Shown here: piece after piece, positions 20,860 to 52,370 of the stretch | Layout: each line of letters begins with the position of its first letter | Numbering within the stretch: the stretch's first letter is position 1 | Assembly (NCBI GenBank): GCA_030068145.1 | Contig: JAPJBO010000244.1 | Coordinates: forward strand, 1-64,000 | DNA: 64,000 bases | Reading direction: 5' to 3' | Origin: Diplonema papillatum | Taxonomy: Eukaryota > Euglenozoa > Diplonemea > Diplonemida > Diplonemidae | The notes under the pieces: generated by a model | Told to the model about the DNA's origin: nothing | Databases searched by the model: none | The model's input: the letters and a program-made list of their open reading frames with translations, nothing else | Made by a program: the position numbers and the translations under genes

Positions 20860-21840
20860 CCTGACCGTGTTGTTCGGGTCCTGCCGGGTGATGCTATAGG
20901 TTTGCGTCTTGCAGCGACGAGAAACTTGACCCGGTGCCCAAGGCTACAACACGAGGATCAAGCCCTGCTTTGCAGGCAGTGCTGCTGATCTTCGATGGGC
21001 TTCTGGTGCAAAAACCGCCTCCGACTTGGTCGCTGAAAAGTGAGTGTTCTGCACTGCGTTCCAGGTCCGTTAGTGCTCACGAAGTTCGCCGCACTGCAGG
21101 GAGCAACGTCTCTGCAAGCGTGTTGTATCCCGCACCGGGAAGCGAAATCCAGGGTATCCTCAGCCTTTTCCCTGTTTTTCCAAGCTTCGCTCAGCGCCCT
21201 GGCTGCCTTCTTGGCGGTGTTCTTCCCGGTGTCTCGCGCCTGCTTTTCGGTGGCGGCGATCTTTCGGAACTCGACGTCGGCTTGCACTTGGGCTGTGCTG
21301 TCGTGCGCTTTGATGATTTCGAGGTTCTCGCGGGCCTGGTAGTTGTGCTTCGACAGCTCGAACTGTGCCTTCCGAAAGCGCGCTTCTGGACCATGGACGA
21401 ATTGTGGGACCCCAGGCTTGTACCTACTTGTGTGTACCTATACCGGTGTAGGCAAGTACAGACAACAGGCACAGATACGGGTGGGTACCGTACAAGTGGG
21501 TACGGGTATACAGGCACAGGTGCAGGAAGGTCTGGGTACAGGCGGGTGCTGGTGCAGGCGCGGCCTGCTGTGTCGTGTGTTGTTCGGGTCCTGAGGGATG
21601 ATGTTGTTCGCGTTCTCGATGGTGCACTTCACGTTGTCCATCTTGAACCAGCAGAGCACGAGTGTTCTGCAGGATCTGCACCCGGAGCTCGTCCACAGTA
21701 CAGGGAGCAACGTGATGCTGTTCGCGTTCTCGATGGTGCGCTCCACATTGTCCATCTTGAACCAGCAAAGCGTGTGTGTTCTGCCCGGACCTCTTCCGCA
21801 GCACAGGGAGCAACGTCTCTGCACCGAGTAGCGAAACCTA
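20860..21840 (-). pseudogene. broken copies of the FKBP-TPR gene 3' half
   Basis: Minus-strand frames repeat pieces of the neighbouring gene. FRKIAATEKQARDTGKNTAK is at 20958-21287. Two partial copies of LCWFKMDNVERTIENAN lie around 21620-21830. The order is scrambled, stops and frameshifts occur, and a diverged tandem stretch around 21420-21560 interrupts them. This is duplicated, decayed TPR-coding sequence downstream of the intact gene. Confidence 0.8.
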
Positions 21841-21873
21841 GGGGGTACCCTCAGCTTTTTTTTTTTTGATTTT

Positions 21874-22815
21874 TCAAGCTTCGCTCAGCGCCCGGGCTGC
21901 CTTCTTGGCGGTGTTCTTCTCGACCTCGCGCGCCTGCTTTTCGGTGGCGGCGATCTTTCGGAACTCGGCGTCGATGTCGGCTTGCACTTGGGCTGTGCTG
22001 TCGTGCGCTTTGATGATTTCGAGGTGCTCGCGGGCCTGGTAGTAGTTGTGCTTCGACAGCTCGAACCGCGCCTTCCGAAAGTGCGCTTTCGTGTTGTTAG
22101 GGTCCTGCCGGATGATGTTGTTCGCGTACTCGATGGTGCGCTCCACGTTGTCCATCTTGAACCAGCAAAGCATGATGTTCTGCAGGATCTGCACCCGGAC
22201 CTCGTGCTGCGCGTCCTCGATGTCCTTCATCTTCGGCGGCAGCGGCCGCCTCCTCCGGCCGAGGATGTCAAGACCTTTGTTGTACGCCCGGATGGCCAGC
22301 CGGTGGTCTCCCGCCGCAAAGTGGGCGTTCCCCTCCGCCTTCTTCTCGATCCCGGCGGTAACTTGCTCCGCCGGCGTCCACGGGCCCGCGAAGTCGACCA
22401 GCTCCATTTCGAGCTCGACGACGGCCCATTCCGGGACGTTGGGCGGGAACCCGTTTTCTTTGAAGGCGAAGAGGGGGTCGAGGACGAAGTTCGCGAGCTC
22501 CCCTCGCTTCATGGACAAAACGGCCTGTTCCATGCCCGGGACGACCATGCCTCCGCCGGGTATTATCTCGAGCGGGTACTCCGCGTCGGACGAGTCGAAG
22601 GTGGACCCCTTGTACCGGTACTGGTAGTTGATCTCGGTGAACGACCCCTCCCGCGGCGTCGCGCCCGCGGCGCCTTCAGGGCTCCCGCGGATGATCTTCT
22701 TCCAGATCCCCTGGCAGCCGCTGATGTCGACGTAGCCGTCGCCGGGGGCCTCCTTCACCATGCTCCAGCCACGCTTCGCCATTTCGGCGTGCGGGTCTAC
22801 TGCCCATTGTTCCAT
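21874..22815 (-). CDS. FKBP-type peptidyl-prolyl isomerase with TPR domain
   Basis: A 313-codon intron-free frame. Residues about 35-145 form an FKBP domain: YRYKGSTFDSSD, PLEIIPGGGMVVPGMEQAV and PLFAFKENGFPPNVPEW match the family core. The tryptophan at the pocket base is replaced by Met (VVPGMEQ), as in many large FKBPs, so isomerase activity may be reduced. Residues about 152-290 form TPR-like helices (AEGNAHFAAGDHRLAIRAYNKGL, ILQNIMLCWFKMDNVERTIEYAN, AHFRKARFELSKHNYYQAREHL), the usual Hsp90-binding clamp in FKBP51/52-like co-chaperones. A basic Ala/Lys end follows. A few coding bases upstream of the ATG could belong to an exon joined at CACCAACCAG. Copies of both gene ends flank it. Confidence 0.9.
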   Translation of the reverse strand: MEQWAVDPHAEMAKRGWSMVKEAPGDGYVDISGCQGIWKKIIRGSPEGAAGATPREGSFTEINYQYRYKGSTFDSSDAEYPLEIIPGGGMVVPGMEQAVLSMKRGELANFVLDPLFAFKENGFPPNVPEWAVVELEMELVDFAGPWTPAEQVTAGIEKKAEGNAHFAAGDHRLAIRAYNKGLDILGRRRRPLPPKMKDIEDAQHEVRVQILQNIMLCWFKMDNVERTIEYANNIIRQDPNNTKAHFRKARFELSKHNYYQAREHLEIIKAHDSTAQVQADIDAEFRKIAATEKQAREVEKNTAKKAARALSEA

Positions 22816-22955
22816 ATCCTTCTCTGGTTGGTGATACCGACAATTCCGTGGGTGGAGGAGGGTACCTGTTTAATTGAGTCGTCCGGAGAGGGGTGGTCGT
22901 ATGCCATGACTGTTTCCTTAATTTTAAAGTGACGTTCCCTTTGAAATCCGGGGTC

Positions 22956-23330
22956 TTAAATTATCCGGGTGGCTTTAGCTGTTGCTTCATGGATCAAACG
23001 ACCTGTTCCGTGCCCGGGACGACCATGCCTCCGCCGGGTATTATCTCGAGCGGGTAATCCGCGTCGGACGAGTCGAAGGTGGACCCCTTGTACCGGTACT
23101 GGTAGTTGATCTCGGTGAACGACCCCTCCCGGCGTCGCACCCGCGGCGCCTTCAGGGCTCCCGCGAATGATCTTCTTCCAGATCCCCTGGCAGCCGCTGA
23201 TGTCGACGTAGCCGTCGCCGGGGGCCTCCTTCACCATACTCCAGCCACGCTTCGCCATTTCGGCGTGCGGGTCTACTGCCCATTGTTCCATATTCTCGCA
23301 CTCGCTGGTTGGTGATACCAACAAGGGGAG
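22956..23330 (-). pseudogene. duplicate of the FKBP gene 5' half
   Basis: About 330 bp nearly identical to the start of the FKBP gene, including the ATG and 5' flank (TTGGTGATACC). The frame is lost after residue about 70 through a small deletion near 23130, and the copy stops within the FKBP domain. Confidence 0.85.
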
Positions 23331-23358
23331 GGTACCTGTTTACTTGAGTTGTTCAGGG

Positions 23359-23545
23359 AGGATTGCAAGAACGTGCTTGGAATGGATATGCGTTCAACAC
23401 CGCACTGGTCCCGTCTGCGCCGTGTTTCGGTCCTTTAAGCCACGGACACGAAGGCGGACCATCATCAGCGCGGAATCTGAGGAGTGTCTGCAGACAGGAC
23501 AGCGGTGTGAGTCTGGTTTGTCAGGCGGCGGTTCGTAGCTCACAG
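23359..23545 (+). repeat. dispersed repeat family B
   Basis: Second copy of the 185-bp family, nearly identical to 18053-18240, abutting the FKBP 5' duplicate. Confidence 0.8.
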
Positions 23546-24580
23546 CCGGGACCACCCGTGCTACCAGAGTTGTTCGGGGAAGAGGGGTCTTCAAATGCTA
23601 TGGTTGTTGGCTTGATTTTAGTTGTCGTTCCTGGCTTATTCAAGTCGGCCAACCGAGAATTGTTGGTTAGGTCACCATGCCCGCGTGACAACGCAGCGTT
23701 GAACACCGATTTTTGAGTGCGTACACCCCGGTTGAAAGGCGCGCTACACTTCGGAGTCCATATTTCCGGGGGTTCTCCGGTCGCTCGTGGCGACGAGCCC
23801 CTCGGCCTTCTGACTCTCAATGAGAAGGTGTTTCCACAGCATCTTGAGGTGTCCCCATCCAGCGTTTTAGAGTTAGAGTTTGCCTGTTTTGCGTCGGGTT
23901 TTGAGTGCGTACGCCCCGGCTGGTGTATCACCCAAGCTCTAGTCAAGCTCTGGTGGATCACAAGCTCTGGCCTATCGCTCGTATTACACTTCGGATTTCA
24001 TTCATTCCTAGCGGCAACACAACGAGGCACAGCCCTAATCGACGCCAGCGGCTCCAGCGCATCCTACAAGATTCCTTTCCGTTCCCCTTGCGGCCTGACC
24101 CTGCTGGAACCGCGGTCGGCGTGTTGATTCTAATATAGGTTTGCTCAAATTATTAGTTGCACTTTTCGGCAAATGGAACAGAATCCGAAACTCCTGGTTG
24201 GCCCGATCGTTCGAAACGCGCTTGGCTGTTGACTCCGCTAGCGTCGTCTTGCCATCCGGCGCAAGACCAAAAGATAGACTGAAAGCTCCTTACACTTCCA
24301 GCCTTCCTTCTTTTCTACCTCGCTACCTATGGGAGAAACATCGCAAAAACAGAACCGAGAATGAGAAGAGCTTTTGTTTCGCTTTGCGCCACAGTGTAAA
24401 TGGTGTACGAGGCGCGGATCGACTGGGAAGAGGACACCTCGAAGCATTCCGGAAATGACCTACCGTTTCGGGGACAGGAGTAGCAGGGACAGAAGTTGCA
24501 GCGGTCCGTCGGCAGCAGCGTAACAACTGTGCTGGGACCTGCTGGCTGTCCGACCACGCAAGCACTGGCTGAAACACTCA
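23546..24580. other. no recognisable gene; seed of the 30-bp repeat
   Basis: No domain-bearing frame. At 23915-23975 there are about two imperfect units resembling the 30-bp repeat (GGTGTATCACCCAAGCTCTAG). This may be an ancestral seed or an isolated remnant of the array that starts 650 bp later. Confidence 0.5.
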
Positions 24581-24587
24581 AGCTCTG

Positions 24588-27500
24588 GTGTATCACTCAA
24601 GCTCTAGCCAAGCTCTGGTGTATCACTCAAGCTCTAGCCAAGCTCTGGTGTATCACTCAAGCTCGGGTCAAGCTCTGGTGTATCACTCAAGCTGGTTAGT
24701 GTATCACTCAAGCTCTAGCCAAGCTCTGGTGGATCACTCAAGCTCGGGTCAATCTCTGGTGTATCACTCAAGCTCGGGTCAAGCTCTGGTGTATCACTCA
24801 AGCTGTAGCCAAGCTTTAGTGTATCACTCAAGCTCTAGCCAAGCTCTGGTTAATCACTCAAGCTCGGGTCAAGCTCTGGTGTATCACTCAAGCTCTAGCC
24901 AAGCTCTGGTGTATCACTCAAGCTCTAGCCAAGCTCTGGTGTATCACTCAAGCTCGGGTCAAGCTCTGGTGTATCACTCAAGCTCTAGCCAAGCTCTGGT
25001 GTATCACTCAAGCTCTAGCCAAGCTCTGGTGTATCACTCAAGCTCTAGCCAAGCTCTGGTGTATCACTCAAGCTCGGGTCAAGCTCTGGTGTATCACTCA
25101 AGCTGTAGCCAAGCTTTAGTGTATCACTCAAGCTCTAGCCAAGCTCTGGTGTATCACTCAAGCTCGGGTCAAGCTCTGGTGTATCACTCAAGCTCTAGCC
25201 AAGCTCTGGTGTATCACTCAAGCTCTAGCCAAGCTCTAGTGTATCACTCAAGCTCGGGTCAAGCTCTGGTGTATCACTCAAGCTCGGGTCAAGCTCTGGT
25301 GTATCACTCAAGCTGTAGCCAAGCTTTAGTGTATCACTCAAGCTCTAGCCAAGCTCTGGTGTATCACTCAAGCTCGGGTCAAGCTCTGGTGTATCACTCA
25401 AGCTCTAGCCAAGCTCTGGTGTATCACTCAAGCTCTAGCCAAGCTCTGGTGTATCACTCAAGCTCGGGTCAAGCTCTGGTGTATCACTCAAGCTCGGGTC
25501 AAGCTCTGGTGTATCACTCAAGCTGTAGCCAAGCTTTAGTGTATCACTCAAGCTCTAGCCAAGCTCTGGTGTATCACTCAAGCTCGGGTCAAGCTCTGGT
25601 GTATCACTCAAGCTCTAGCCAAGCTCTGGTGTATCACTCAAGCTCTAGCCAAGCTCTAGTGTATCACTCAAGCTCGGGTCAAGCTCTGGTGTATCACTCA
25701 AGCTCGGGTCAAGCTCTGGTGTATCACTCAAGCTGTAGCCAAGCTTTAGTGTATCACTCAAGCTCTAGCCAAGCTCTGGTGTATCACTCAAGCTCTAGCC
25801 AAGCTCTGGTGTATCACTCAAGCTCGGGTCAAGCTCTGGTGTATCACTCAAGCTCTAGCCAAGCTCTGGTGTATCACTCAAGCTCGGGTCAAGCTCTGGT
25901 GTATCACTCAAGCTCTAGCCAAGCTCTGGTGTATCACTCAAGCTCTAGCCAAGCTCTAGTGTATCACTCAAGCTCGGGTCAAGCTCTGGTGTATCACTCA
26001 AGCTCTAGCCAAGCTCTGGTGTATCACTCAAGCTCTAGCCAAGCTCTGGTGTATCACTCAAGCTCTAGCCAAGCTCTGGTGTATCACTCAAGCTCTGGTG
26101 TATCACTCAAGCTCGGGTCAAGCTCTGGTGTATCACTCAAGCTCTAGCCAAGCTCTGGTGTATCACTCAAGCTCTAGCCAAGCTCTGGTGTATCACTCAA
26201 GCTCGGGTCAAGCTCTGGTGTATCACTCAAGCTCTAGCCAAGCTCTGGTGTATCACTCAAGCTCTAGCCAAGCTCTGGTGTATCACTCAAGCTCGGGTCA
26301 AGCTCTGGTGTATCACTCAAGCTCTAGCCAAGCTCTGGTGTATCACTCAAGCTCTAGCCAAGCTCTGGTGTATCACTCAAGCTCGGGTCAAGCTCTGGTG
26401 TATCACTCAAGCTCTAGCCAAGCTCTGGTGTATCACTCAAGCTCGGGTCAAGCTCTGGTGTATCACTCAAGCTCTAGCCAAGCTCTGGTGTATCACTCAA
26501 GCTCTAGCCAAGCTCTGGTGTATCACTCAAGCTCGGGTCAAGCTCTGGTGTATCACTCAAGCTCTAGCCAAGCTCTGGTGTATCACTCAAGCTCTAGCCA
26601 AGCTCTGGTGTATCACTCAAGCTCGGGTCAAGCTCTGGTGTATCACTCAAGCTCTAGCCAAGCTCTGGTGTATCACTCAAGCTCTAGCCAAGCTCTGGTG
26701 TATCACTCAAGCTCTAGCCAAGCTCTGGTGTATCACTCAAGCTCGGGTCAAGCTCTGGTGTATCACTCAAGCTCTAGCCAAGCTCTGGTGTATCACTCAA
26801 GCTCTAGCCAAGCTCTGGTGTATCACTCAAGCTCGGGTCAAGCTCTGGTGTATCACTCAAGCTCTAGCCAAGCTCTGGTGTATCACTCAAGCTCGGGTCA
26901 AGCTCTGGTGTATCACTCAAGCTCGGGTCAAGCTCTGGTGTATCACTCAAGCTGTAGCCAAGCTTTAGTGTATCACTCAAGCTCTAGCCAAGCTCTGGTG
27001 TATCACTCAAGCTCGGGTCAAGCTCTGGTGTATCACTCAAGCTCTAGCCAAGCTCTGGTGTATCACTCAAGCTCTAGCCAAGCTCTGGTGTATCACTCAA
27101 GCTCGGGTCAAGCTCTGGTGTATCACTCAAGCTCGGGTCAAGCTCTGGTGTATCACTCAAGCTGTAGCCAAGCTTTAGTGTATCACTCAAGCTCTAGCCA
27201 AGCTCTGGTGTATCACTCAAGCTCGGGTCAAGCTCTGGTGTATCACTCAAGCTCTAGCCAAGCTCTGGTGTATCACTCAAGCTCTAGCCAAGCTCTGGTG
27301 TATCACTCAAGCTCGGGTCAAGCTCTGGTGTATCACTCAAGCTCGGGTCAAGCTCTGGTGTATCACTCAAGCTGTAGCCAAGCTTTAGTGTATCACTCAA
27401 GCTCTAGCCAAGCTCTGGTGTATCACTCAAGCTCGGGTCAAGCTCTGGTGTATCACTCAAGCTCTAGCCAAGCTCTGGTGTATCACTCAAGCTCTAGCCA

Positions 27501-29217
27501 AGCTCTGGTGTATCACTCAAGCTCTAGCCAAGCTCTAGTGTATCACTCAAGCTCGGGTCAAGCTCTGGTGTATCACTCAAGCTCGGGTCAAGCTCTGGTG
27601 TATCACTCAAGCTGTAGCCAAGCTTTAGTGTATCACTCAAGCTCTAGCCAAGCTCTGGTGAATCACTCAAGCTCGGGTCAAGCTCTGGTGTATCACTCAA
27701 GCTCTAGCCAAGCTCTGGTGTATCACTCAAGCTCTAGCCAAGCTCTAGTGTATCACTCAAGCTCGGGTCAAGCTCTGGTGTATCACTCAAGCTCGGGTCA
27801 AGCTCTGGTGTATCACTCAAGCTGTAGCCAAGCTTTAGTGTATCACTCAAGCTCTAGCCAAGCTCTGGTGTATCACTCAAGCTCTAGCCAAGCTCTGGTG
27901 TATCACTCAAGCTCTAGCCAAGCTCTGGTGTATCACTCAAGCTCTAGCCAAGCTCTGGTGTATCACTCAAGCTCGGGTCAAGCTCTGGTGTATCACTCAA
28001 GCTCTAGCCAAGCTCTGGTGTATCACTCAAGCTCTAGCCAAGCTCTGGTGTATCACTCAAGCTCGGGTCAAGCTCTGGTGTATCACTCAAGCTCTAGCCA
28101 AGCTCTGGTGTATCACTCAAGCTCTAGCCAAGCTCTGGTGTATCACTCAAGCTCTAGCCAAGCTCTGGTGTATCACTCAAGCTCTGGTCAAGCTCTGGTG
28201 TATCACTCAAGCTCTGGGTCAAGCTCTGGTGTATCACTCAAGCTCTAGCCAAGCTCTGGTGTATCACTCAAGCTCGGGTCAAGCTCTGGTGTATCACTCA
28301 AGCTCGGGTCAAGCTCTGGTGTATCACTCAAGCTCTAGCCAAGCTCTAGTGTATCACTCAAGCTCGGGTCAAGCTCTGGTGTATCACTCAAGCTCTAGCC
28401 AAGCTCTGGTGTATCACTCAAGCTCTAGCCAAGCTCTGGTGTATCACTCAAGCTCGGGTCAAGCTCTGGTGTATCACTCAAGCTCTAGCCAAGCTCTGGT
28501 GTATCACTCAAGCTCGGGTCAAGCTCTGGTGTATCACTCAAGCTCTAGCCAAGCTCTGGTGTATCACTCAAGCTCTAGCCAAGCTCTGGTGTATCACTCA
28601 AGCTCGGGTCAAGCTCTGGTGTATCACTCAAGCTCTAGCCAAGCTCTGGTGTATCACTCAAGCTCTAGCCAAGCTCTGGTGTATCACTCAAGCTCGGGTC
28701 AAGCTCTGGTGTATCACTCAAGCTCTAGCCAAGCTCTGGTGTATCACTCAAGCTCTAGCCAAGCTCTGGTGTATCACTCAAGCTCGGGTCAAGCTCTGGT
28801 GTATCACTCAAGCTCTAGCCAAGCTCTGGTGTATCACTCAAGCTCTAGCCAAGCTCTAGTGTATCACTCAAGCTCGGGTCAAGCTCTGGTGTATCACTCA
28901 AGCTCTAGCCAAGCTCTGGTGTATCACTCAAGCTCTAGCCAAGCTCTGGTGTATCACTCAAGCTCGGGTCAAGCTCTGGTGTATCACTCAAGCTCGGGTC
29001 AAGCTCTGGTGTATCACTCAAGCTGTAGCCAAGCTTTAGTGTATCACTCAAGCTCTAGCCAAGCTCTGGTGTATCACTCAAGCTCGGGTCAAGCTCTGGT
29101 GTATCACTCAAGCTGTAGCCAAGCTTTAGTGTATCACTCAAGCTCTAGCCAAGCTCTAGTGTATCACTCAAGCTCTGGTCAAGTTCTGGTGTATCACTCA
29201 AGCTCTAATCAAGCTGT
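24588..29217 (+). repeat. 30-bp minisatellite, about 150 units, with 210-bp higher-order repeats
   Basis: Units of the form GGTGTATCACTCAAGCTC.. come in three main variants: TCTAGCCAAGCTCTGG (S), TCGGGTCAAGCTCTGG (G) and TGTAGCCAAGCTTTAG (C). Variant C recurs every 210 bp (near 25105, 25315, 25525, 25735), giving seven-unit blocks C-S-G-S-S-G-G. Since 30 is a multiple of three, the plus strand is open and reads (ALVYHSSSSQ)n / (ALVYHSSSGQ)n. Odd-length units at about 24690, 26090 and 28200 shift the frame, so the array is three overlapping frames rather than one. There is no signal peptide or flanking coding sequence, so I treat it as non-coding. Confidence 0.95.
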
Positions 29218-29316: not shown

Positions 29317-32264
29317 TCAAGAGGCTGCTTCAACGGAGCTGCTAGAAGTGGAAACGATCCGCAAGCTGGACGGCGGGTCAAAGGACAAGGGCCCGTGGAT
29401 GACCCACTGATCGCCCGCCGCCCGTTCGCACCGCGCGATCGGGTCGAAGACCGGCTCCCGCGCGCGAACGACGACGAACTGCCCCGCCCGCAAGCGCACG
29501 ACCTCATCATCATCATCGTCACCATCATTCAGCGGCGGTTCACCCCGCCGGGGAGAGCCGGCGCCCGCGGGTCCCGCCCGCCAGCGGTCTTCGAGCAGCC
29601 GCGACCTGCGGCGCTCGAGGGACAGCTGCCTGCGCAGTTCACCGACGCTTTGCCTCACGGCCGCGCTCACCTCGTCGACGTCCCGGACGAGTTCGTGCTT
29701 GCCTTCGGTTTCAGCCTCCGCGGCCGCTTCGGCGTCGAGCTGCCGCTGGTGCAGGCGGCGGAGCTCCTTCTGCGTCGCAGACAGGGTGCGGCGGGCGTCG
29801 TCCAGCTCCGAGAGCCAGTGCCGACCGGATTCGGCGGCTCGGGAGCGGAGGGATTGGATTTCGGCTTCGAGCTGCCGGTTGCGCTCGCGCTCGGTTTCGA
29901 GCCGGGCGGCGCACGCCGAGTGGCCTTCCCGCGCGGCCGGGCCCCGGCGCAGGCGTTCGAGCTCGGCCAGGAGCGGCGCCTGCGCGAGCGAGACGCTCCG
30001 CTGGTGCTGGCGCTGCTCCTCCAGCGCAACGAGCCGCGCGCGCTGCTCCTGCGCAGCGGCTTCCGCCCTCCGCAGCCGCCCGCTCAGCTCCGTGACGCGT
30101 TGCTCGGATTCGGTGAGCAATCGACTCAGGTCCGCATCACGGGCCATGCCTCTTTCCCTATCCTCACATTGCTCTATTCGCTGCTGCCAGGCGGTCTGTA
30201 GTAAAGTGTGTTGAAGCTACAAGTTGGTGTCTTAATAGTCTATGCTGAAGCTACAATCTGGGTATTCCAAATAGTTTGTGAAGCTACTACGGCATTCCAA
30301 ATATATTCGTTGAAACTATGCATGGAACGTATCCACACTTTTCCCCCGCCCCTCGCCGGAAACCCCAGAACGTAACACTCCCGAAGTTGAGGATCTTAGA
30401 TTTCGGCTTCGAGCTGCCTGTTGCGCTCGCGCTCAGTTTCGAGCCGGGCGGCGCACGCCGAGTGGCCTTCCTGCGCGGCCGGGCCCCGGCGGAGGCGTTC
30501 GAGCTCGGCCAGGAGCGGCGCCTGCGCGAGCGAGACGCTTCGCTGGTGTGCTGGTGCTGCTCCTCCGTGTGTGCTGAAGCTACAGAAGGGGATTCCAAAT
30601 AGCGTGTGCTAAACAGGGCTTACGCTCCACGTGTGGAACGTGTGGTTTTCCACACGTTAATTCTTTTTGGATTTTGTTCCCCCACGTGTGGATCCACAGG
30701 TACCACATGTGGATTTTGATTGATTGGTCCACATGCAGGGGAGTCTAGGCCCACTAGCGGTCGAGGCCGCACAGCCAGGTGTCGCCAAGTCAGTAGCGAC
30801 ACTATTTTTCTTGCCGTCGCACATGAGGGGAACAGGTTTTTTTTTTCCCCTCGAACCTTAAGCGCCCACACGTGGACCACACGTATTTTCTCTGAGACCG
30901 AAAACGGAGCGTAAGCCCTGGTGCTAAAGCTACAAAAGGGTGTTTGAAATGGGTGTGCCCGAGTCACACCCGAAAGCGGCTGTGCACCACCCGGGGTTGC
31001 GCACCTTGGGGCTTGGCGCTCGCGCTGAACACAAGCTCGTCGAGACGGCCAGCCACAGGACAGAGCGGACGGGGTTGTAGCATTGTGCTGCCTCCGACTC
31101 AAGCTTTGCAAGCTGCGGTTGACTGTCACGTTTCTGGACCCGGAGCGTCCTTTACTTTTTCTTCTTCTTCCGTTGTCGACGGGGGAAAATTTTAGTTTAA
31201 TGTTTGCAGAGCACTGCCTCTCATGCATGTTTGATGCTAGCATCAAGTCTTCTTCGAGGAGGATGTCGTCTAGGGTCTAGGAAAGGGACGCAAAATAGAA
31301 AGAGGTAAAAAGGGGGAGTGTACGGCTCCCAAAGTGGGGTATGAAACCTTGGGAGGGTGGAAGTGATAACAGGAAGGGGGCGACACCTGCTCCGCGCGCA
31401 GCTGGGCGCCTTCCAGGCGTCCATCCAGGCTGGTGGTACTGGTGTGGTCAAGCTGTCCAGGCTGGTGGTGTGGTCAAGCTGTCCAGGCTGGTGGTACTGG
31501 TGTGGTCAAGCTGTCCAGGCTGGTGGTGTGGTCAGCTGGTGGTACTGGTGTGGTCAAGCTGGTGGACTGTTCTGGTCAGGCTGGAACGCACCAGTTCAGG
31601 GAATTCAAATTGTTTGCTGCTGGCTATAAGGGAATTAAATTTGCTTTGCTGTAAGGGAATTAAATTTGCTTTGCTGCTGGCTATTAAGGGAATGCCATTG
31701 TTTTTGCTGGCTCGAAGGGAATAAAAAAAAAATTGCTGACTACAAGGGAACTTCAATTATACCTGCTGGCTATAAGGTAAATTGCTCTTTAATTTTTTAG
31801 GCGGGGTGGTGGGTGGAAGTGATAACAGGAAGGGGGGCACACACCTGCTCCGCGCGCAGCCGGGCGCCCTCACGCTCCTTCAGCTGCAAGGTTGCCTCCA
31901 GTTGCCGGTTCTCCTCCCGCAGGTTGCGCAGCTGCTGGTCGCGCGAGCTGAGGCACTCGCGGAGCTCGTCGGCAGCGTCGGAGCCGCCCTTCAAAGCCGA
32001 GACCTGCCCCCGGAGCGCGAGGATCGCCGCCTTTTTCTCCGCCAAGACGGCGTGCAGGTACGCAGCGTCCTCCGACGCGGTCGGATAGCCCTCGGCGCCT
32101 TCAGCGGGATGGGGCGGGCGCCTGCTGGAGGCGAGTCTCTTCTTCGTGAATCGGCTGTCTTCCGCGCGCCAGGCGCCCCGCCTGCACTGCAGCTTGCCTT
32201 GGGGCGTGCTGTACAAATCGCGGGCTGCCAAGCATCGGGTCCGGACGCATGCATCAATCGTCAT
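29317..32264 (-). CDS. coiled-coil protein, two supported exons
   Basis: Exon 1 runs 32264-31845 and ends GCGGAGCAG|GTGTGT. Exon 2 runs 30195-29317 after the acceptor CTTTACTACAG. Both junctions are phase 0 and the joined frame continues a heptad-rich helix (EGARLRAEQ then TAWQQRIEQCEDRERG). The product is about 430 residues if the ATG at 32264 is used. Residues about 70-140 and 155-340 are Arg/Glu/Leu-rich coiled coil; the tail has an acidic DGDDDDDE run. No enzymatic motif is visible, so a structural or cytoskeletal role is possible but unproven. The intron holds a copied piece of exon 2, a hAT-like MITE, a family E copy and short minisatellites. The start region is triplicated upstream, which supports 32264 being near the true 5' end. 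Confidence 0.7.
30395..30565 (-). pseudogene. copy of coiled-coil exon 2 segment inside the intron
   Basis: About 160 bp nearly identical to 29857-30020 of exon 2 (GCGGCGCACGCCGAGTGGCC and flanks), in the same orientation, within the intron 200 bp upstream of the exon. Confidence 0.85.
30614..30920. mobile_element. hAT-like MITE with perfect 8-bp target-site duplication
   Basis: The 307-bp element has 15-bp perfect terminal inverted repeats, CAGGGCTTACGCTCC at the left and GGAGCGTAAGCCCTG at the right. It is flanked on both sides by GTGCTAAA (30606-30613 and 30921-30928). The 8-bp duplication and CAGGG terminus match the hAT superfamily. Internal CACGTGTGG-type subterminal repeats occur at both ends, as transposase-binding sites would. 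It has no coding capacity and needs a transposase in trans. Confidence 0.9.
30985..31170 (+). repeat. dispersed repeat family E, truncated
   Basis: Shares GCGCACCTTGGGGCTTGGCG, GTCGAGACGG and CTGCCTCCGACTCAAGCTTT with longer copies at 53205-53490 and 57788-58080. It ends, like them, in a TTCTTCTTC tract. Confidence 0.75.
31221..31262. repeat. palindromic repeat family P
   Basis: CTCATGCATG is followed by TTGATGCTAGCATCAA, a perfect palindrome, then GTCTTCTTCG. See 34134, 56775, 57680 and 58761 for equivalent copies; diverged ones lie near 13565, 35132 and 44700. Confidence 0.8.
31425..31585. repeat. degenerate CAGGCTGGTGG minisatellite
   Basis: Five to six imperfect units containing GTCCAGGCTGGTGGTACTGG or GTGTGGTCAAGCT. 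A second set of imperfect units (GGCTATAAGGGAATTAAATT) follows at 31600-31780. Confidence 0.75.
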
Positions 32265-32417
32265 GAGGGTTCGCTCACTTTTTCCTTTCTTGTGTTGCCG
32301 TCGATCTTCCCGGGGGACAATCGGTTTGCGCGGCTCGCGACCTTTGGTTTGGTATTAGAGCGATAGCTTATCGATGAAGTGTTTTTTAAGGTCAACCTTG
32401 TCCTCAAACATGGCGGC

Positions 32418-33090
32418 AAACGAGGTACGCAGCGTCCTCCGACGCGGTCGGATAGCCCTCGGCGCCTTCAGCGGGATGGGGCGGGCGCCTGCTGGAGGCG
32501 ACTCTCTTCTTCGTGACTCGGCTGTCTTCCGCGCGCCAGGCGCCCCGCCTGCACTGCAGCTTGCCTTGGGGCGTGCTGTACAAATGCGGGCTGCCAAGCA
32601 TCGGGTCCGGACGCATGCATCAATCGTCATGAGGGTTCGCTCGCGTTTTCCTTTCTTGTGTTGCCGTCGATCTTCCCGGGGGACAATCGGTTTGCGCGGC
32701 TCGCGACCTTTGGTTTGTTATTAGAGCGATAGCTTATCGATGAAGTGTTTTTCAAGGTCAACCTTGTCCTCAAACATGGCGGCAAACGAGGTACGCAGCG
32801 TCCTCCGACGCGGTCGGATAGCTCTCGGCGCCTTCAGCGGGATGGGGTGGGCGCCTGCTGGAGGCGACTCTCTTCTTCGTGACTCGGCTGTCTTCCGAGC
32901 GCTAGGCGCCCCGCCTGCACTGCAGCTTGCCTTGGGGCGTGCTGTACAAATCGCGGGCTGCCAAGCATCGGGTCCGGATGCATGCATCAATCGTCATGAG
33001 GGTTCGCTTGCTTCTTCTTTTCTTGTGTTGCCGTCGATCCCCCCGAGGAACAATCGGTTTGCGCCTTGCGACCTTTGGTGTAGTAAGGGA
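32418..33090 (-). pseudogene. two extra tandem copies of the coiled-coil gene start
   Basis: The segment from GAGGTACGCAGCGTCC to the upstream GATGAAGTGTTTTT is repeated at 32422 and 32788, a 366-bp period. With the parental sequence at 32060-32400 this makes a triplication. Each unit holds the first about 68 codons including the ATG, plus about 150 bp of 5' flank. In the copies the coding part is cut after residue about 68 (DAAYL) and runs into unrelated sequence. Confidence 0.85.
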
Positions 33091-33107
33091 TTGCATTAGT
33101 ACTGTCG

Positions 33108-33166
33108 TAGTAAATTTTGTTGCATTAGTCGAAGGCTTGACAATCACACTAATGCAACAAATTTAC
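33108..33166. mobile_element. hairpin element (inverted repeat of about 20 bp)
   Basis: GTAAATTTTGTTGCATTAGT and ACTAATGCAACAAATTTAC are inverted copies differing by one base, separated by about 20 bp. One half recurs at 56102-56135 (ACAATCACACTAAATGCAAC), which indicates a mobile or dispersed unit. Confidence 0.75.
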
Positions 33167-33347
33167 GATCGTGACAGGCCTTCAACTACCCTGAGCAGCG
33201 CACTGTGACCTTTGGTTTGTTTCTAGAGCGATAGCTTGTGGATGAAGTGTTTTTCAAGGGTCAGGGTTTGCGGGGGACGCTCTCAATGCGGGAGTGGCCA
33301 CTTCCGCACGTTTTCACCCGTGTTGACTTCGTACATGGCTGCTGCGG

Positions 33348-33545
33348 GTTTGCGGGTTTGCGGGTTTGCGGGTTTGCGGGTTTGCGGGTTTGCGGGTTTG
33401 CGGGTTTGCGGGTTTGCGGGTTTGCGGGTTTGCGGGTTTGCGGGTTTGCGGGTTTGCGGGTTTGCGGGTTTGCGGGTTTGCGGGTTTGCGGGTTTGCGGG
33501 TTTGCGGGTTTGCGGGTTTGCGGGTTTGCGGGTTTGCGGGTTTGC
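33348..33545. repeat. (TTTGCGGG)n array, about 24 units
   Basis: A near-perfect 8-bp tandem array of about 195 bp. All frames are open, hence spurious frames on both strands. The G-rich strand has regularly spaced GGG runs, so G-quadruplexes are possible, and the unit resembles T/G-rich telomeric repeats although it is not a standard one. Confidence 0.97.
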
Positions 33546-39150: not shown

Positions 39151-39204
39151 TCGTTCGACCCTACTAATAATGGGCTTGGGCTGCCGAGTGCGCGGAGAGC
39201 CGAG

Positions 39205-39320
39205 ACGAGCTGATTGGCCTTCGGCTTCGCCTTCGGCCGGCGACCGCCCTTCACGTCGACCTTCACCGGTCCGGCCTTCTTCGCCGCCGGCTTCGGAGCT
39301 GCCTTCCGGGCGCGCCAACT
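39205..39320 (-). pseudogene. fragment of the H1-like coding sequence
   Basis: TTCTTCGCCGCCGGCTTCGG with GCTGCCTTCCGGGCGCG, and the preceding GCCTTCGGCTTCGCCTTCGG, match the Lys/Ala-coding region at 38080-38220 but joined differently. It sits on the far side of the 31-bp array. Confidence 0.7.
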
Positions 39321-40960: not shown

Positions 40961-40964
40961 TGGG

Positions 40965-41150
40965 GGGAGTTTGCAAGGACGTGCTTGGAATGGTGATGTG
41001 CTAAACACGCACCCAGTCCTAACTGCACCGTGCTCCGAGCCCTCTAAGCACCACGGGCTCATTAGGCGGGCCATCATAGGCGCAAAAGCTGAGGCTCTGC
41101 GGACAGGACAGCGATGTAAAGTCTGGTCTGTCAGGCGGCTGCTCTCAGCT
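40965..41150 (+). repeat. dispersed repeat family B, diverged copy
   Basis: GCAAGGACGTGCTTGGAATG begins the copy and GCGGACAGGACAGCGATGTA lies near its end. About 75-80% similar by eye to the other copies. Confidence 0.65.
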
Positions 41151-42810: not shown

Positions 42811-45800
42811 TTAGATGGCGAGCTTCACCTTCGCGCCGACGGGGAGCTCCGGCTTGCCGAGGGGGATGCCGCGGTTGGGGTCGTAGATGGGAGCGTCCGG
42901 GCGGGACGTGGCGTCTCTGGAGATCATCGTGATACAGTCTGGAACCGGGCAGACGGACACGCAGAGCGTGCAGCCCGTGCAGCTGTCGGTGATGAGGGGC
43001 TGGTGGGTGTCGGGGTTGAACTTGATGGCTTGGTAACCCGTGTCGTTGCACGTCATCATGCACTTCCCGCAGTTGATGCACAGGTCGTCGTTCACGATGG
43101 CGACGGCCTGATTGTGCGGCGCCATGCCCAGCAGGTCGCCGAATGATCCGATGGTCGGCAGCGCCAAGCCCACCAGCGAGTTGACCGTCGGTACCTCTCT
43201 CCGAGTGGCGCCGCCGGCCTTCCCCCCGTTCAACTGCGCGGTCGGATCCGCGTGACGGCCGTTGTTCGTCGCTCCTTCGGCGTGCTGCTTGGCGGATTCT
43301 TCGTGCTGTTTGCGCAGGTACTGGCCGAAGCGCGGCGGCGTCCCCTTCATTTGGAAGGCAGCCTCAACCGGCACCTGGGGCACCTGCTTCTCCCACGTGG
43401 CAAGGTCGCGCCGACTCTGAGCGTACAGGTGCCACTTCAGGCCCATGATCCAGTCCTGCACGATCGTGAAGTCCTGGTTCTGGATCGCAGCGGACACCTG
43501 CATCACGGGGGCGCCCGCGTAGAGGAACTGGATGACTGCATCCGCGCTGTCGATGCCGCCAGTGGCCATGATGGGGAAGCCGGGGATCTTGTTCGCGATC
43601 GACGAGATCATGCGGAGGGCGATCGGGCGCACGGCGTTCCCGCTGCAGCCGCCGTACGTGGTGCGCTTCTCGGCGCCGACTCTCGGCCAGGCCGCGCCGT
43701 CCATCTTCAGATGCTGGAGCCCGCTGACCGTGTTGATCGCCGTCACTCCCGTGGCACCACCTTCCTTCGCTGCCTTCGCGATGTCGCAGATATCTGGAGT
43801 TTGGGTTTCGTGTTGCACATTGTTTTGTCCACAGGGTTTAGAGGTTCAACAGGAATATGTAGGCAAAGGACAAGCAGCCAGCAAACTACTTCTTTTTTGT
43901 AGCCGGACGTTGTGAGTACTGAAAGGAAACGACAACAGACCTGTGATGTTCGGCGTCATTTTCGCGAAGAACGGGATAGTGGCGACCTCCTTCACCCAGC
44001 CGCAAATGTCCTTGACCAAATTCGGCTTCTGTGCAATCAAAGGAGGGTGTTGCGTGAAGTAGCGAAATCCAAATTCCCCTTGCTTGGATTTGCACACAGA
44101 ACCCATAAATGCCTTGGACACGGTGATTCGAGTCTGGTTGCGTCCACAAGGGGAGAACAATGAGTTTACCCAGAGGGAAAAGGGAATGAATGCACGTGCA
44201 CAGCTCATGATAGCATTCCTTACTTACGGGGTCTATTGTACTCCGTCTTTTTATCCCGGGGCTAGGACACTGCATGCTTCATGAGGTTCTGTCTCGGGGT
44301 TCGCGTGAATGCGAACCGCAGGCAATCAAATCCAAGCAAATCAGAGCACATCAATGGGTCCTTGTTGTGGTGACTTTCAGTCGCGCTTCGATTCGACGCA
44401 ACAAACTCACACTTCGGTTTCAGTTATCGTTCCGGTTCAGGTTATGGCTCGTTTTCAGGTTTAAAAGTCCAGTCTTATCATTGAGGCTGGAAGCCTTTGA
44501 AGGGTAGAATCTGAGTTTCGTGTTTGGGTAGAATCTCAAGTATGCTCGGGTCTTCTTCGCGGGGATGCAGAGACTCGTCTTCGTTTCCCCCTACCTCTTT
44601 CGTTGTCGAAGACACCTTTTTACCAAATGGTGCTCTTGGAATTTTCGGTGCGCGGAGAGTGGGGGGAACTCTAGCTTAGTGTTTGGGCGAGAATCTTGCC
44701 ATCACAGTAGGTTTGATGCTGGCATCAAACCTACATACTTCTTCGCGGAATTGCTGAGATTTTTTTTATTTATTTGCTTCGTTCTTTCTTTACCGTAGTG
44801 ATCTTGGACTTTCTACATGGTGCCGGAGAGGGGGTTCACACCTGGCCGCACGCCAAGCCCATTCCCTTTTCGCCCATGCCATGCGGGCAAGAGAGGTTGA
44901 GCTCGAGCGCGTCGGACCCGGCTTCCTGCGCCTGCTTCGCGAGGGTTTGCCAGTCGCTCTTGTCGTGGCTGCACATGATCGACGCGATGACGATGTGCCG
45001 CGGGTAGTCCTTTTTGAGCTGCCTCACGCCCGAGCACCAGTACGCCGCTGTCTTCTCCGAAATGAGCTCGATGTTCAAAAACGACCCCTGGTGGGGCCCG
45101 TAATGCGGCCCAGACGTCGACCCCCGCACGATGCGGGGCGAGACGTTGGTGACGATGTCCTTGTCCAACGAAAACGTCTTCGTCACCGCGAACCCCCAGC
45201 CGGCTTCGAAACCCCTTGCGATCATCGCAACCGTCGTTGCTGGGGGCGCGGAGGCGAGGCCGAACGGGTTTGGGAATTTGAGCCCCGCGAAGTCGACCGA
45301 GATGTCTACATCGTCGACCTCTGTGTGCATGCGCGGCAGCACCGGCTCTGGCGGCACCGAGGCGGCGGGGTTGAACGTTTTTTGGATGTACTCGTGCATG
45401 TACCAGCTGGCGGTTTTCCCGTCGTTCGCCGCCTCCACCGTGAGGCCGCTGCCGACGCAGTCCCCGCCGGCGAATACCCACGGGGTTTTCGTGCGCATCT
45501 TCGCGTCGACCCGCACCTTACCCCACTCCAGGTCTGCCACTTTCGCGAGCTCCTTTTCGAGGTCGGTTCCCAGCACGGAGCCGAAGGCGGAGATGATGAA
45601 GTCGCACTTGACGCGAAGGGTCTGCTCGTCGTCTTTGATCCACTTGCCGTCGTCGTCGATGTCCATCTTCCACATCTCGCACGCCACAATGTGGCCATCC
45701 TTCACGATGACCTCTTTCGGCAAGCAGTACGGCAGATACTCGGCACCTGTGCAATGTTTCTAACACTCATTCCACGGAAAAGTGTCAAAAATTCCGTCTT

Positions 45801-48800: not shown

Positions 48801-51136
48801 AACGTTTTTGCCAAATTTCCTCCATTGTTAACCCCCAAGTGCCTCCCCCCAGTAGTAGCTGCCTGAACCCAACCGTCGAAATTCAATTTCAATTTTAACA
48901 GGTGGCCCAAAACCCAAAACCAGTATAATATTGTATTTGACTATGTGTCGAAATTCGGACTTTTTTGAAACCCCGATTTTCTCTATCCTCCCCCAGCAAA
49001 TACAATATTATACCTATTGTATTTGACCCCCCCCCAGTAGCCTCATCCACCGCCACTTTCCTCCTTTTCGTGCTCCGTTTGTTGTCGCTGTCGCGCTTGC
49101 GCGAGTTGCGGGCTCGCTCATGCTGGCTGGCACTCGTTTTCGTCATTTTATTACGGGTGCAACAGGAAATGTAGAAACCTTGTGTTGGAAATGTTCCTAA
49201 ACTAACTCACAACCGAGAAAAAGGTGAACCATGGGTTTTGAGCCCCAGAAGGTCAAAATGGTGGTTGAAAATGTGTCTCCACAGTCGGGCAAGTCGTCAA
49301 AAAACCCCAACTGGCGGAATTGATAATTTCACCGGCGCGGCAGTGGAACGTGGAAATCCGTGGAAATTTCCACGATTTCCATTTCCACGATTTCCATTTC
49401 CACGTGGATCCACGTCCCGAACCCTGTCCCAAGTTTGGGTCCCAAGTTTGGGTCCCAAGTTTGGGTCCCAAGTTTGGGTCCCAAGTTTGGGTCCCAAGTT
49501 TGGGTCCCAAGTTTGGGTCCCAAGTTTGGGTCCCAAGTTTGGGTCCCAAGTTTGGGTCTTCAGGATAGGGAAATAGAGTTAGGTAGTTCGAACCTGGGCC
49601 CCTCCGCCTTGAACGCTCATACCGTAACCACTGCACCCTTCCATGATGATTTTAAAAAAAAGAAAAATTGCGGAACTTAGCATCGCCCGAACTTAGCTTC
49701 ACCCGAACTTTACTGTTCCCCGAACTTTAACTGCTGCCTCCAGTCTCGCCACGCGCCGGCCTTAGCCGAGCGCACGTACTTGTTTGGGGCGGGATATAAG
49801 GGAACTTTACCCATTTTTAAAGTTGAAGTTCGATTTTCATTTCCAACAATGGCGTGATTCACCCAAGAGTTTCTCGGGTTTGTCCCACGGGTTGTCCTTC
49901 CAAATGAAGCTCACACACCACCCGGGACGATGTGTTGACACCGCGAAAAGGTCAGAAAAAAGGCGGGTTCATACGCTCCGAGCGGGCGAGAATGGTTTCG
50001 TCGTCGACGGCGCGCATGTCCGCGGTAGACCGCCGGAAGGTGACGAGCACGCGGCTGGCGCCGTTGCGGAAAGCGGATCCGGTGCAGTCGAAGGCGGTGT
50101 CCCCCGCCCCGAGGACGAGCACCTTGCCGTACACCTTCGGCGGCTTCGGGGCCCCCGCGGCCCCGCAGCCGCACATGCCGGGCTTCGACGCGACCGCCGA
50201 CTCCGGGAGGAAGTCCTTGCTGGTGTAGAACCCTTGTGCCACGGTCAGCCCCTTGAACACAGGGTCCACGTTGGGCTTCGGCAGCCCGCACCCGACGAAC
50301 AGGCAGGCCTTGCCGGCCTGCAGCTTGTCCACGGTGTAGTCCCCGACGCCGAAGGCGGTCCCCAAGTGCACGCTCACCCCGAGGTCTTGGCACAGCTGCA
50401 CCTCCCACTGCACCGCGTCCGTCGCCAGGCGGTACTGGGGCACCTCGCTCGCGCTCAGTCCGCCCGCGTACGGCAGTTTTTCGATCATGTGGATGTTCGA
50501 GTACCCCATGCGAGACAGGAACGTCGCGCACGAAATGCTCGCCGGGCCGGCCCCCACGAGGACGATCTTCGTCGCGAACGACGCGTGCATCGCGGCGGCC
50601 GCCGGCAGCGCCGGGTCCCTGGCGGCGCGGATGTTCATGCTCTTGAAGGTGGTGACCGCGAAGTCCTGCAGGCCCGATATGTTGATCGGCCCCGCCTCCG
50701 TCGCGGCGAGGTTGCAGCCGCCGACGCAGAGGTTCGAGACCGGACAGATCATGCCGCACGAGAGGCCCACCGGGTTGTCCGACAGGATCATGTGGGCGGC
50801 CCCGTAGTGGTTGTGGTTCGCGATGCACGAGATGAACGACTTGATGTCGATAGACGTAGGGCAGCTCTTCTGGCACGGCGCGTCGGCGCACTTCAGGCAG
50901 CGGACGGCCTCCTTCACGGCCGCGTTGTGGCCGAGGGTGGTGTGCTTCGCGTCGGACCAGTCGCCCTTGCGGAGGGTCCCGACGTGCGGGATGTTGCGCT
51001 TCCACCGCAGCTTCTCCGCCTGCGCCTCGGGCGTCGGCCGCAGCGTGGCGTTCTTCAGGATCCGCGGGTTCAGCGTCAGGTTCTCGATGTCCTCCACGAA
51101 GAGGTCGCTCGCCGTCGTTGCATTGCTCGGTGCCAT
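42811..51136 (-). CDS. DPYD: dihydropyrimidine dehydrogenase (NADP+), four exons
   Basis: Exons 51136-49975, 45746-44842, 44028-43941 and 43793-42811 join in phase (donors GTATGA, GTGTGA, GTCTGT; acceptors ACAG, CACAG, CCAG). They give 1045 residues; human DPD has 1025. DPD reduces uracil and thymine, the first step of pyrimidine catabolism, passing electrons from NADPH through FAD and Fe-S clusters to FMN. Seen: N-terminal Fe-S ligands in [14 protein letters not shown] (80-93) and [18 protein letters not shown] motif GAGPAS (195); NADPH motif GAGDTAFDC (343); FMN barrel with catalytic NLSCP (Cys674) and NTVSG; two C-terminal 4Fe-4S motifs, [11 protein letters not shown] (957) and [12 protein letters not shown] (990). 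All key residues are present, so the enzyme is probably functional. Intron 1 (4.2 kb) holds a fold-back element. The start region is triplicated upstream. Confidence 0.96.
44290..44760. repeat. DPYD intron 2 content, including family P-like palindrome
   Basis: Within intron 2 (44029-44841) lies GTAGGTTTGATGCTGGCATC followed by AAACCTAC (about 44707-44734), an extended imperfect palindrome, then CTTCTTCGCGGAATTGCTGAG. A partial copy, GGTCTTCTTCGCGGGGATGC, precedes it near 44550. Confidence 0.65.
45757..45840. repeat. inverted copy of a segment at 52535-52625
   Basis: AACACTCATTCCACGGAAAA..CAGCCCGTTTTGGGTCATTTT is the reverse complement of the segment at 52535-52622. This copy begins only about 10 bp from the DPYD intron 1 acceptor; the other lies upstream of the gene. 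Confidence 0.75.
46262..46665. repeat. 30-bp minisatellite GCCCATTCACGAGCATG
   Basis: About 14 units. The four best, at 46500-46620, repeat every 30 bp (CCCATTCACGAGCATGCTCA then AAACTTTTTG); earlier units are shorter or diverged. Open frames (PFTSML / PIHEHA repeats) follow from the 3n period. Confidence 0.92.
47170..47340. repeat. tandem duplicate, about 78-bp unit
   Basis: CGCACAGCCGTTTGTTTGTG..CACCTGTATGG..CGCTGCCAACCGTCACTTTT occurs twice in direct order. A relative of its end (ACGCTGCCAACTGTC) is near 58310. Confidence 0.8.
47820..48460. repeat. 205-bp family units and TTTGCCATTATAGTCCA repeats
   Basis: Positions 47980-48260 hold about 1.4 units of the 205-bp family known from 35540-36245. 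TTTGCCATTATAGTCCA occurs at about 47833, 48379, 48413 and 48438. TACCTCTTCTATTC occurs twice. Confidence 0.7.
48498..48655. repeat. 13-bp minisatellite (CCAAGTTTGGGAC)n
   Basis: Eleven to twelve units of CAAGTTTGGGACC. Each unit is itself close to a palindrome (CCAAGTTTGGG), so the array can fold on itself and also pairs with the related array at 49428-49557. Confidence 0.93.
49428..49557. repeat. 13-bp minisatellite (CCCAAGTTTGGGT)n
   Basis: About ten units of CCCAAGTTTGGGT, one base different from the 48498-48655 unit. It lies inside the right arm of the fold-back element. Confidence 0.93.
49572..49645 (-). other. tRNA-like sequence with Pol III A and B box motifs
   Basis: On the minus strand GTGCAGTGGTTACGGTATGA resembles an A box and D arm, and about 35 bp later CCCAGGTTCGAACTACC matches the B box core GGTTCGA. 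The anticodon and acceptor stems do not pair well, so this is not a functional tRNA. A tRNA-derived SINE head or tRNA relic is likelier. Another B-box-like GGTTCGATTCC is at 48677 on the plus strand. Confidence 0.4.
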
Positions 51137-51443
51137 CGCCCCTCCCCTTTTTGTCTTCTTTTTGCGACTGAATTTTTGAGGTATGAAGCACGAGAAGCGC
51201 AAGAACACGCATCACCACCACCAGCAGGGGGTGGTCCACCGTTCCGCGAATGAGTGCCAGTGCCGGACTGTTTCGAGTTTTAAGGATCCGTGTGTGTCTG
51301 TCTACGGTCGACAGTATAGGCGGGTTGGGGTTCTTTCCTTGGGTGTAGCTGGTACCTGTTAGTTCGTCTGTTGGATCGTCGTTACTAGCGTTTACTCTTC
51401 GGCACGACAGGGCAATTAACGCACATTCGATCGAGGAGAGCGA

Positions 51444-52370
51444 GTCCCGACGTGCGGGATGTTGCGCTTCCACCGCAGCTTCTCCGCCTGCGCCTCGGGC
51501 GTCGGCCGCAGTGTGGCGTTCTTCAGGATCCGCGGGCTCAGCGTCAGGTTCTCGATGTCCTCCGTCCTCCATGAAGAGGTCGCTCGCCGTCGTTGCATTG
51601 CTCGGTGCCATCGCCCCTCCCCTTTTTGTCTTCTTTTTGCGACTGAATTTTTGAGGTATGAAGCACGAGAAGCGCAAGAACACGCATCACCACCACCAGC
51701 AGGGGGTGGTCTACCGTTCCGCGAATGAGTGCCAGTGCCGGACTGTTTCGAGTTTTAAGGATCCGTGTGTGTCTGTCTACGGTCGACAGCATAGGCGGGT
51801 TGGGGTTCTTTCCTTGGGTGTACCTGGTACCTGTTAGTTCGTCTGCTGGGTCGTCGTTACTAGCGTTTACTCTTCGGCACGACAGGGCAATTAACGCACA
51901 TTCGATCGAGGAGAGCGAGTCCCGACGTGCGGGATGTTGCGCTTCCACCGCAGCTTCTCCGCCTGCGCCTCGGGCGTCGGCCGCAGTGTGGCGTTCTTCA
52001 GGATCCGCGGGCTCAGCGTCAGGTTCTCGATGTCCTCCGTCCTCCATGAAGAGGTCGCTCGCCGTCGTTGCATTGCTCGGCGCGCGTCGCCCCTCCCCCT
52101 TTTTGCCTTCTTTTTGCGACTAAATTTCTGAGGTGTGGAGAAGCACGAGAAGCACAAGAATACGCACCACCACAGCAGGGGGTGGTCTACTGTTCCGCGA
52201 ATGAGTGCCAGTGCCGGACTGTTTCGAGTTTTAAGGATCCGTGTGTGTATGTCTACGGTCGACAGTATAGGCGGGTTGGGGTTCTTTCCTTGGGTGTAGC
52301 TGGTACCTGTCAGTTCGTCTGTTGGGCGGCACGACAGGGCTATTACCGCAAAACCGATCGAGGAGAGCGA
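51444..52370 (-). pseudogene. two tandem extra copies of the DPYD start region
   Basis: A block of about 475 bp, holding the first 54 codons, the ATG, and about 270 bp of 5' flank, occurs three times. The parental one starts near 50976, the others at 51444 and 51919 (marker GTCCCGACGTGCGGG). Copy 2 keeps the ATG but has a 7-bp duplication (GGAGGAC) that shifts the frame. Copy 3 has the same 7 bp and has lost the ATG (to ACGCGC). Copies 2 and 3 are more alike than either is to the gene, so the mutated copy was itself duplicated. Confidence 0.92.

Follow-up and report, generated by a model that had tools for sequence, protein, structure and literature searches.

Partial copies of gene ends beside their parent genes in Diplonema papillatum: the case for untargeted small tandem duplication

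Genes and partial gene copies in the window

The stretch of Diplonema papillatum DNA analysed here, referred to below as the window (64,000 nucleotides), carries a set of genes of which several are accompanied, at short distance, by incomplete copies of their own ends or interior parts (Table 1). All 21 of the model-called coding segments of at least 90 bp lie on one strand, and a single coding strand was also found in 19 of 20 randomly drawn 10-kb regions of the genome (4 of these 19 have one segment; the remaining region, L035, is mixed). Polycistronic transcription with spliced-leader trans-splicing has been inferred for this species (Valach et al. 2023, PMC10161547); "promoter", the term used in the initial annotation of the window for sites of preferred copying, is thus a doubtful word here. 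Pfam scans of the later coiled-coil exon, the H1-like open reading frame (ORF) and the ORF at 53.6 kb gave no hit, and the names "coiled-coil" and "H1-like" as well as the label of the 53.6-kb ORF therefore rest on composition.

Table 1. Parent genes, partial copies and inserted elements in the window (positions in the 64,000-nucleotide stretch)
Feature	Position	Strand	Basis
72-bp direct pair (19541-19612 ~ 20546-20617), upstream of ORF 18820-19265	19541..20617	-	92% identity
FKBP 3' piece copies, downstream of gene	21132..21816	-	self-BLAST
FKBP-TPR gene, parent	21830..22817	-	Pfam PF00254, E 3.9e-13
FKBP 5' half copy, frameshifted	22984..23361	-	against 22506-22891, 91% over 386 bp
Dispersed element inserted in outer FKBP copy	23355..23569	.	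self-BLAST
Coiled-coil gene, later exon	29336..30148	-	coding model
Copy of later-exon part 29854-30022 within upstream intron	30396..30566	-	95%, self-BLAST
Copy of first-exon 3' edge (31808-31871) inside intron	31352..31413	-	89%, self-BLAST
Coiled-coil gene, first coding exon, parent	31870..32274	-	coding model; ATG read
Coiled-coil start, three copies	32056..33259	-	self-BLAST, genome search
Copy of H1-like interior piece (38114-38217), 1.1 kb off on upstream side	39214..39314	-	87%
Later DPYD exons (44837-45742 and 42812-43789)	42812..45742	-	Pfam Pyr_redox_2, DHO_dh, Fer4; coding model
DPYD-like first coding exon, array parent	49974..51136	-	PDB dihydropyrimidine dehydrogenase, E 4.3e-129; Pfam Fer4_20; coding model
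DPYD start, three direct copies	50976..52371	-	self-BLAST, sequence read
Dispersed repeat of ~119 bp within each DPYD upstream unit	51266..51383	.	genome search
Copy of 53806-53869 from 53.6-kb gene	52931..52994	-	64 bp, 84%

The repeated unit at the DPYD-like gene consists of the first 161 coding bp together with approximately 307 bp upstream of the ATG, and its copies follow each other at shifts of 468 and 475 bp (self-BLAST). Identity is 98.3% between copies 1 and 2, 95.0% between copies 1 and 3, and 95.5% between copies 2 and 3. Copies 2 and 3 have in common a 7-bp frameshifting insertion and five substitutions, all absent from copy 1, and 51 alignment columns separate copy 3, which has also lost the ATG, from copies 1 and 2; this mixed sharing suggests sequence exchange between the copies or more than one round of origin. 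The second half of the dispersed family represented in each upstream unit runs beyond the array at 52337-52450; among 40 candidates scored, genome matches to the dispersed part or to its second half showed 73-89% identity, and the array, scanned with Rfam to see whether the dispersed part derives from an rRNA or snRNA, gave no match up to E 0.1. Inspection by eye also revealed, in this one case, a 7-bp inverted match between the start of the DPYD unit and the bases that follow the unit end.

The coiled-coil array occupies 32056-33085, with a last scrap at 33207-33259, and has a shift of 366-367 bp. Its unit carries approximately 148 bp upstream of the ATG, identities among the copies are 98.4, 93.9 and 94.3%, and the third copy is broken at about 33077-33207 by a dispersed element recognized in the genome search. 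In both three-copy arrays, similarity to the gene falls with distance, from 98.3 and 98.4% for the adjacent copy to 95.0 and 93.9% for the outermost. The copied 5' unit of the FKBP gene extends only approximately 74 bp upstream of the ATG (i.e., within a normal 5'-UTR), and the copies downstream of this gene comprise three pairs, 21132-21385 with 21821-22088 (87%), 21577-21692 with 22091-22205 (91%), and 21713-21784 with 22113-22183 (92%), with a dispersed element found by genome search (21385-21571) separating the copies. The element in the outer FKBP copy recurs in the window at 18048-18262, 39833-39956, 40958-41150 and 56968-57139; by eye, it is flanked by a 13-bp imperfect direct repeat. 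DPYD copies 2 and 3 and the FKBP copy look dead, as judged by frameshifts and the lost ATG.

The layout described in the initial annotation is largely borne out by these data, including three direct copies of the DPYD start, three copies of the coiled-coil start with a 366-bp period, a duplicated FKBP 5' half with 3' pieces on the other side of the gene (self-BLAST recovered all pairs), a piece of a coiled-coil exon in the gene's own intron, and an H1-like fragment. A scrap near 52.9 kb, which had been read as the decayed 3' end of a gene, is indeed a copy, but the match falls inside the parent ORF and not clearly at the 3' end. The copies had also been described as mostly direct and local; every gene-linked pair in the window is in direct orientation, and the shifts range from 0.1 to 1.1 kb.

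Frequency and placement of local duplications

Duplications in the window were found by self-BLAST and grouped into 17 clusters; for comparison across the genome, we used 20 stretches of 10 kb on larger contigs (the first 20 of 180 drawn places; individual regions carry L numbers below). Clusters were defined by matches of at least 60 bp and at least 70% identity no more than 2.5 kb apart, and minisatellites with a period of up to 90 bp were excluded. The assembly searched comprises 271 Mb in 2910 contigs, as compared to 6181 contigs, 280 Mb and an N50 of 190,080 bp for the published assembly (PMC10161547), and hence probably lacks small contigs. The random sample yielded 21 direct local duplication clusters as compared to 4 inverted ones, with at least one direct cluster in 12 of the 20 regions; first-order Markov resampling of the same 20 regions gave no pairs at these thresholds. 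Local duplication is thus widespread and ordinary in the D. papillatum genome, and the repeated local copying of DNA at several independent genes that was first proposed for the window is upheld. One random region, L023, reproduces the gene-start copying of the window. The seven exon-touching events in 200 kb extrapolate to approximately 9,500 events genome-wide (95% range 3,800-19,600). Repeats at a distance from coding sequence also occur in the window; by our own reading there are 8 such clusters among the 17, and 9 of 17 fail a 30-bp coding-overlap cut-off.

Exons were called, without transcripts, with a codon-usage hidden Markov model (HMM) trained on ten window ORFs and refined on the random sample. 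Calls that represented duplicate copies were removed by hand, i.e., eight in the random sample (five in L022 and one each in L023, L026 and L031), with 55 kept, and 7 of 21 in the window, with 14 kept and some edges shifted to ATGs or ORF ends as read from the sequence. Exon 5' edges served as a proxy for gene starts, with first and later exons pooled. Expected counts for all 21 random events were obtained by randomly shifting the observed duplications against the exon calls within regions. Nine of the 21 clusters matched other sample or window regions and were set aside as dispersed (one each in L017, L018, L020, L026 and L028, that in L032, one in L021 and two in L023); for the remaining 12, placement was randomized within regions, across regions, and with avoidance of masked repeats. 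One retained cluster (L035, at 6490) is covered to 24% by a match to another region. In the window, 4 of 17 clusters were set aside in the same manner and 13 kept, among them the DPYD array although its unit is partly dispersed.

A mechanism directed at gene starts or transcribed 5' ends, such as break repair, template switching, or duplication linked to R-loops at trans-splice sites, would account for the three window genes that show start copies, and the genome's authors note repetition of the 5' region "in many of these instances" (PMC10161547). Those published cases surfaced during checking of gene models, however, and were thus looked for at genes. In the random sample, only 2 of the 21 events touched an exon 5' edge, as compared to 3.1-3.5 expected, while 5 touched a 3' edge (3.2-3.5 expected); for the 12 non-dispersed events, the counts were 2 (2.3-2.7 expected) and 5 (2.4-2.8 expected), respectively. 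A stricter edge rule applied to the 21 events gave 1 at 5' edges against 2.85 expected and 6 at any edge against 4.5. The 95% upper limit on enrichment at 5' edges in the random sample is approximately 2.0-2.3 fold, and even the window, where start copies were first seen, has 3 events at 5' edges against 1.6-2.1 expected (P 0.19-0.37). The self-alignment check for enrichment that had been suggested along with a preference for gene starts, run here on the small sample of 20 random regions with HMM exons, revealed no excess at 5' edges; with 2 events against 2.3-3.5 expected overall, the preference is not supported, and we regard targeting of gene starts as improbable.

Exon-touching events were as frequent as expected among all 21 (7 vs. 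6.9-7.0); all 7 reached an edge (4.6-5.1 expected; P 0.12-0.21 in one of several uncorrected tests) and none matched an exon interior only (1.9-2.3 expected; P 0.07-0.12). Among the 12 non-dispersed events, 7 touched an exon (4.5-5.2 expected, P 0.10-0.21), 7 touched any edge (3.5-4.0 expected; P 0.03-0.05, again as one of several uncorrected tests), and none was interior-only (0.8-1.2 expected). Exon edges, whether 5' or 3', are thus weakly enriched, and this only among the non-dispersed random events. One possible, though tentative, account is a general exon-edge effect, in which duplications arise anywhere and those spanning an edge are kept or seen more often, since interior ones break the reading frame and since the half conserved in the parent stays recognizable for longer. 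The numbers are small, however; the excess over all 21 events is not significant, and the window shows 4 events at edges (2.6-3.5 expected) alongside 4 interior-only ones (2.5-3.6 expected), which are thus not depleted. We consider this effect a refinement of the explanation favoured below more than a rival to it. In a stronger reading, exon edges, both 5' and 3', would be true duplication hotspots, and thousands of genes would carry, and keep renewing, copies of their own ends; stalled replication or R-loops at the RNA-processing sites of long polycistronic transcripts could be one reason. We hold this reading to be unlikely.

Origin and decay of the copies

We consider it probable that the copies arose by untargeted small tandem DNA duplication, followed by decay and insertion of mobile elements. 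Small tandem duplications (approximately 60-600 bp) would arise throughout the genome without being aimed at gene starts, through an enzymatic route that may be slippage, unequal exchange or end joining. Where such a duplication spans the edge of a gene, the gene would keep one intact edge and the spare edge would come to lie outside the reading frame; the spare would therefore presumably be harmless and tolerated, and would drift, if copies of this kind are neutral and selection acts as a filter. The spare copy would then gain frameshifts, lose its ATG and be cut by mobile elements, as a result of which the pieces would look scattered. The DPYD and coiled-coil arrays would have grown in more than one round, with exchange of sequence between copies, in an order that we reconstruct from the present copies. 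The absence of interior-only matches among the 21 random events fits such a selective filter, while the four interior-only matches in the window do not show depletion; the weak excess at edges among the 12 non-dispersed events (7 vs. 3.5-4.0), on the other hand, counts against this explanation in its simplest form, since a purely uniform process would not produce an excess. Overall, most of the observations can be explained by tandem duplication with subsequent decay and insertion of elements.

Dispersed elements were found inside or between copies in all five regions for which the genome was searched, i.e., FKBP, coiled-coil and the random regions L022 (3290-3502), L023 (3936-4026) and L031 (6661-6826), and the pieces initially described as scrambled are compatible with tandem duplications that mobile elements interrupted at a later stage. 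Of the 15 spaced pairs, 8 have a spacer that resembles a flank (z of at least 5, to which low-complexity similarity may contribute; for the FKBP 5' pair, the stretch past the inserted element was scored), which would follow if the duplicated unit had originally extended further. In the other 7 (L019, L021, L023, L028, and the window pairs at 31352, 38114 and 19541), the spacer is unlike either flank (z below 5), and these pairs may have been short spaced insertions from the outset. The relation between gene and copies also varies; in L022, identity to the copies is 85-89% for the piece within the gene and 94-95% among the copies themselves, unlike in the two window arrays.

A different source of gene-start copies would be pieces of mRNA, tagged with the spliced leader, that were reverse-transcribed and reinserted beside the parent gene. 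As a query we used a 23-mer that we take to represent the 3' portion of the spliced leader of diplonemids; it matched 656 places in the genome with up to 2 mismatches, as compared to none for the reversed control. At the 5 loci, out of 8, that could be read beyond the match, the leader is joined to varied sequence, as retrocopies would predict (one of these sequences starts with GT), and no 5S or U2 gene lies near any of the 8; leader-RNA genes are reported to sit in units with 5S and U2 (PMC10161547). The window itself, however, contains no match to the 23-mer with up to 3 mismatches, and the copies there are direct and adjoin the parent gene. In addition, the upstream DNA carried by the DPYD unit (307 bp before the start) and by the coiled-coil unit (148 bp) reaches beyond the 5'-UTR, which is given as roughly 70 bp for D. 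papillatum (PMC10161547). This upstream DNA and the lack of a leader match in the window rule out reverse-transcribed mRNA as the origin of the DPYD and coiled-coil copies; copying of these two genes is at the DNA level. Retrocopying as the general explanation is very improbable, even though, as with FKBP, the start copied in random region L023 (including the ATG, 426 bp upstream) belongs to a unit that reaches only approximately 26 bp upstream of the ATG, inside a normal 5'-UTR.

Misjoined or undercollapsed reads could also place copies next to each other in an assembly, and the repeats do adjoin each other in a genome of which 52% of the assembly is repeat (PMC10161547). However, divergence between copies is about 2-16% and some of them carry private indels, the strain is reported as haploid and was assembled from PacBio and Illumina reads, and long reads confirm one such array at another gene (PMC10161547). 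We therefore give an assembly artefact as little credence as retrocopying.

Relation to known partial duplicates

The finding is already known in kind from the authors of the genome. Valach et al. (PMC10161547) describe dozens of genes with the 5' region or the 3' end of the first exon repeated alongside, including one worked array that is confirmed by PacBio reads and missing from the mature mRNA. The tandem 5'-UTR and coding parts of DPYD, the coiled-coil gene and FKBP resemble these repeat-bounded genes, and the FKBP 3' pieces and the copy of the first-exon 3' edge of the coiled-coil gene (31808-31871, copied at 31352-31413) resemble their exon 3'-end repeats in an intron or 3'-UTR. In the published worked example, too, the copies are degenerate, with the most distal the most diverged. 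The account given in the sections of that paper on such repeats consists of the dozens of expert-checked cases and the one worked example, without a genome-wide count, an enrichment test or a mechanism; the present analysis adds a small unbiased sample, a test of whether starts are preferred, and the contribution of inserted elements. Partial gene duplicates of animals and yeast are similar in that copies are incomplete, frames are often disrupted, and such duplicates are reported as frequent in several animals; the counts there refer to pairs of paralogues that have coding frames (PMC3449122). Unlike those duplicates, the window pieces are short, lie no more than approximately 1.1 kb from the parent, and are sometimes repeated several times.

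Gene-end copies of this kind complicate automatic gene prediction and the mapping of reads in this genome (PMC10161547). While the published text speaks of dozens of cases (PMC10161547), exon-touching events may number in the thousands, which would make D. papillatum a good organism in which to measure the origin and decay of short tandem duplications.

Repeats and elements in the window

The features of the window include a LINE-type element and four long tandem arrays (see table), one of which, with a 31-bp unit, lies immediately upstream of the start of the H1-like gene. A transposon-like element of 302-305 bp is present in the window, within an intron of the coiled-coil gene, as well as at seven other loci of the assembly (L002-L008), and 7-8-bp target duplications were identified by eye. 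About 39 copies with 94-98% identity were found among 40 scored candidates, which were drawn from 1726 first-look candidates obtained with a query of 1001 bases.

Features of the 64,000-nt window
Feature	Position	Strand	Details
LINE-type element	4801-10353	-	1851-residue open frame; endonuclease and reverse transcriptase domains
Tandem array	14397-16246		138-bp unit
Tandem array	24579-29215		30-bp unit over 4.6 kb
Transposon-like element	30615-30919		14-bp inverted ends
Tandem array	33343-33545		8-bp unit TGCGGGTT
Tandem array	38490-39155		31-bp unit
U2 snRNA match	58800-58994	+	96.7 bits
Palindrome TTGATGCTAGCATCAA	13572, 31231, 34146, 44713, 56788, 57693, 58769		up to 2 mismatches

Palindrome and U2 snRNA match

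The palindrome TTGATGCTAGCATCAA is part of a short dispersed repeat and occurs at seven places in the window, with 14 strand matches compared to 0.01 expected. The U2 snRNA match is on the strand opposite to the called coding segments of the window; one copy of the palindrome is located approximately 15 bases ahead of it.

Spliced-leader matches across the genome

Neither a 5S nor a U2 gene was found at any of the eight spliced-leader loci examined. The sequence 3' of the leader, which was read at five of these loci (L037-L040, and L044 at its match at 1501), was varied in all five; the remaining three match on the other strand. Genome-wide, a 23-mer of the leader yielded 656 matches (up to 2 mismatches), while 110 leader-RNA genes are reported for D. 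papillatum (PMC10161547); because of this difference in numbers, many of the matches may represent relics of leader-tagged mRNAs that were reinserted into the genome.
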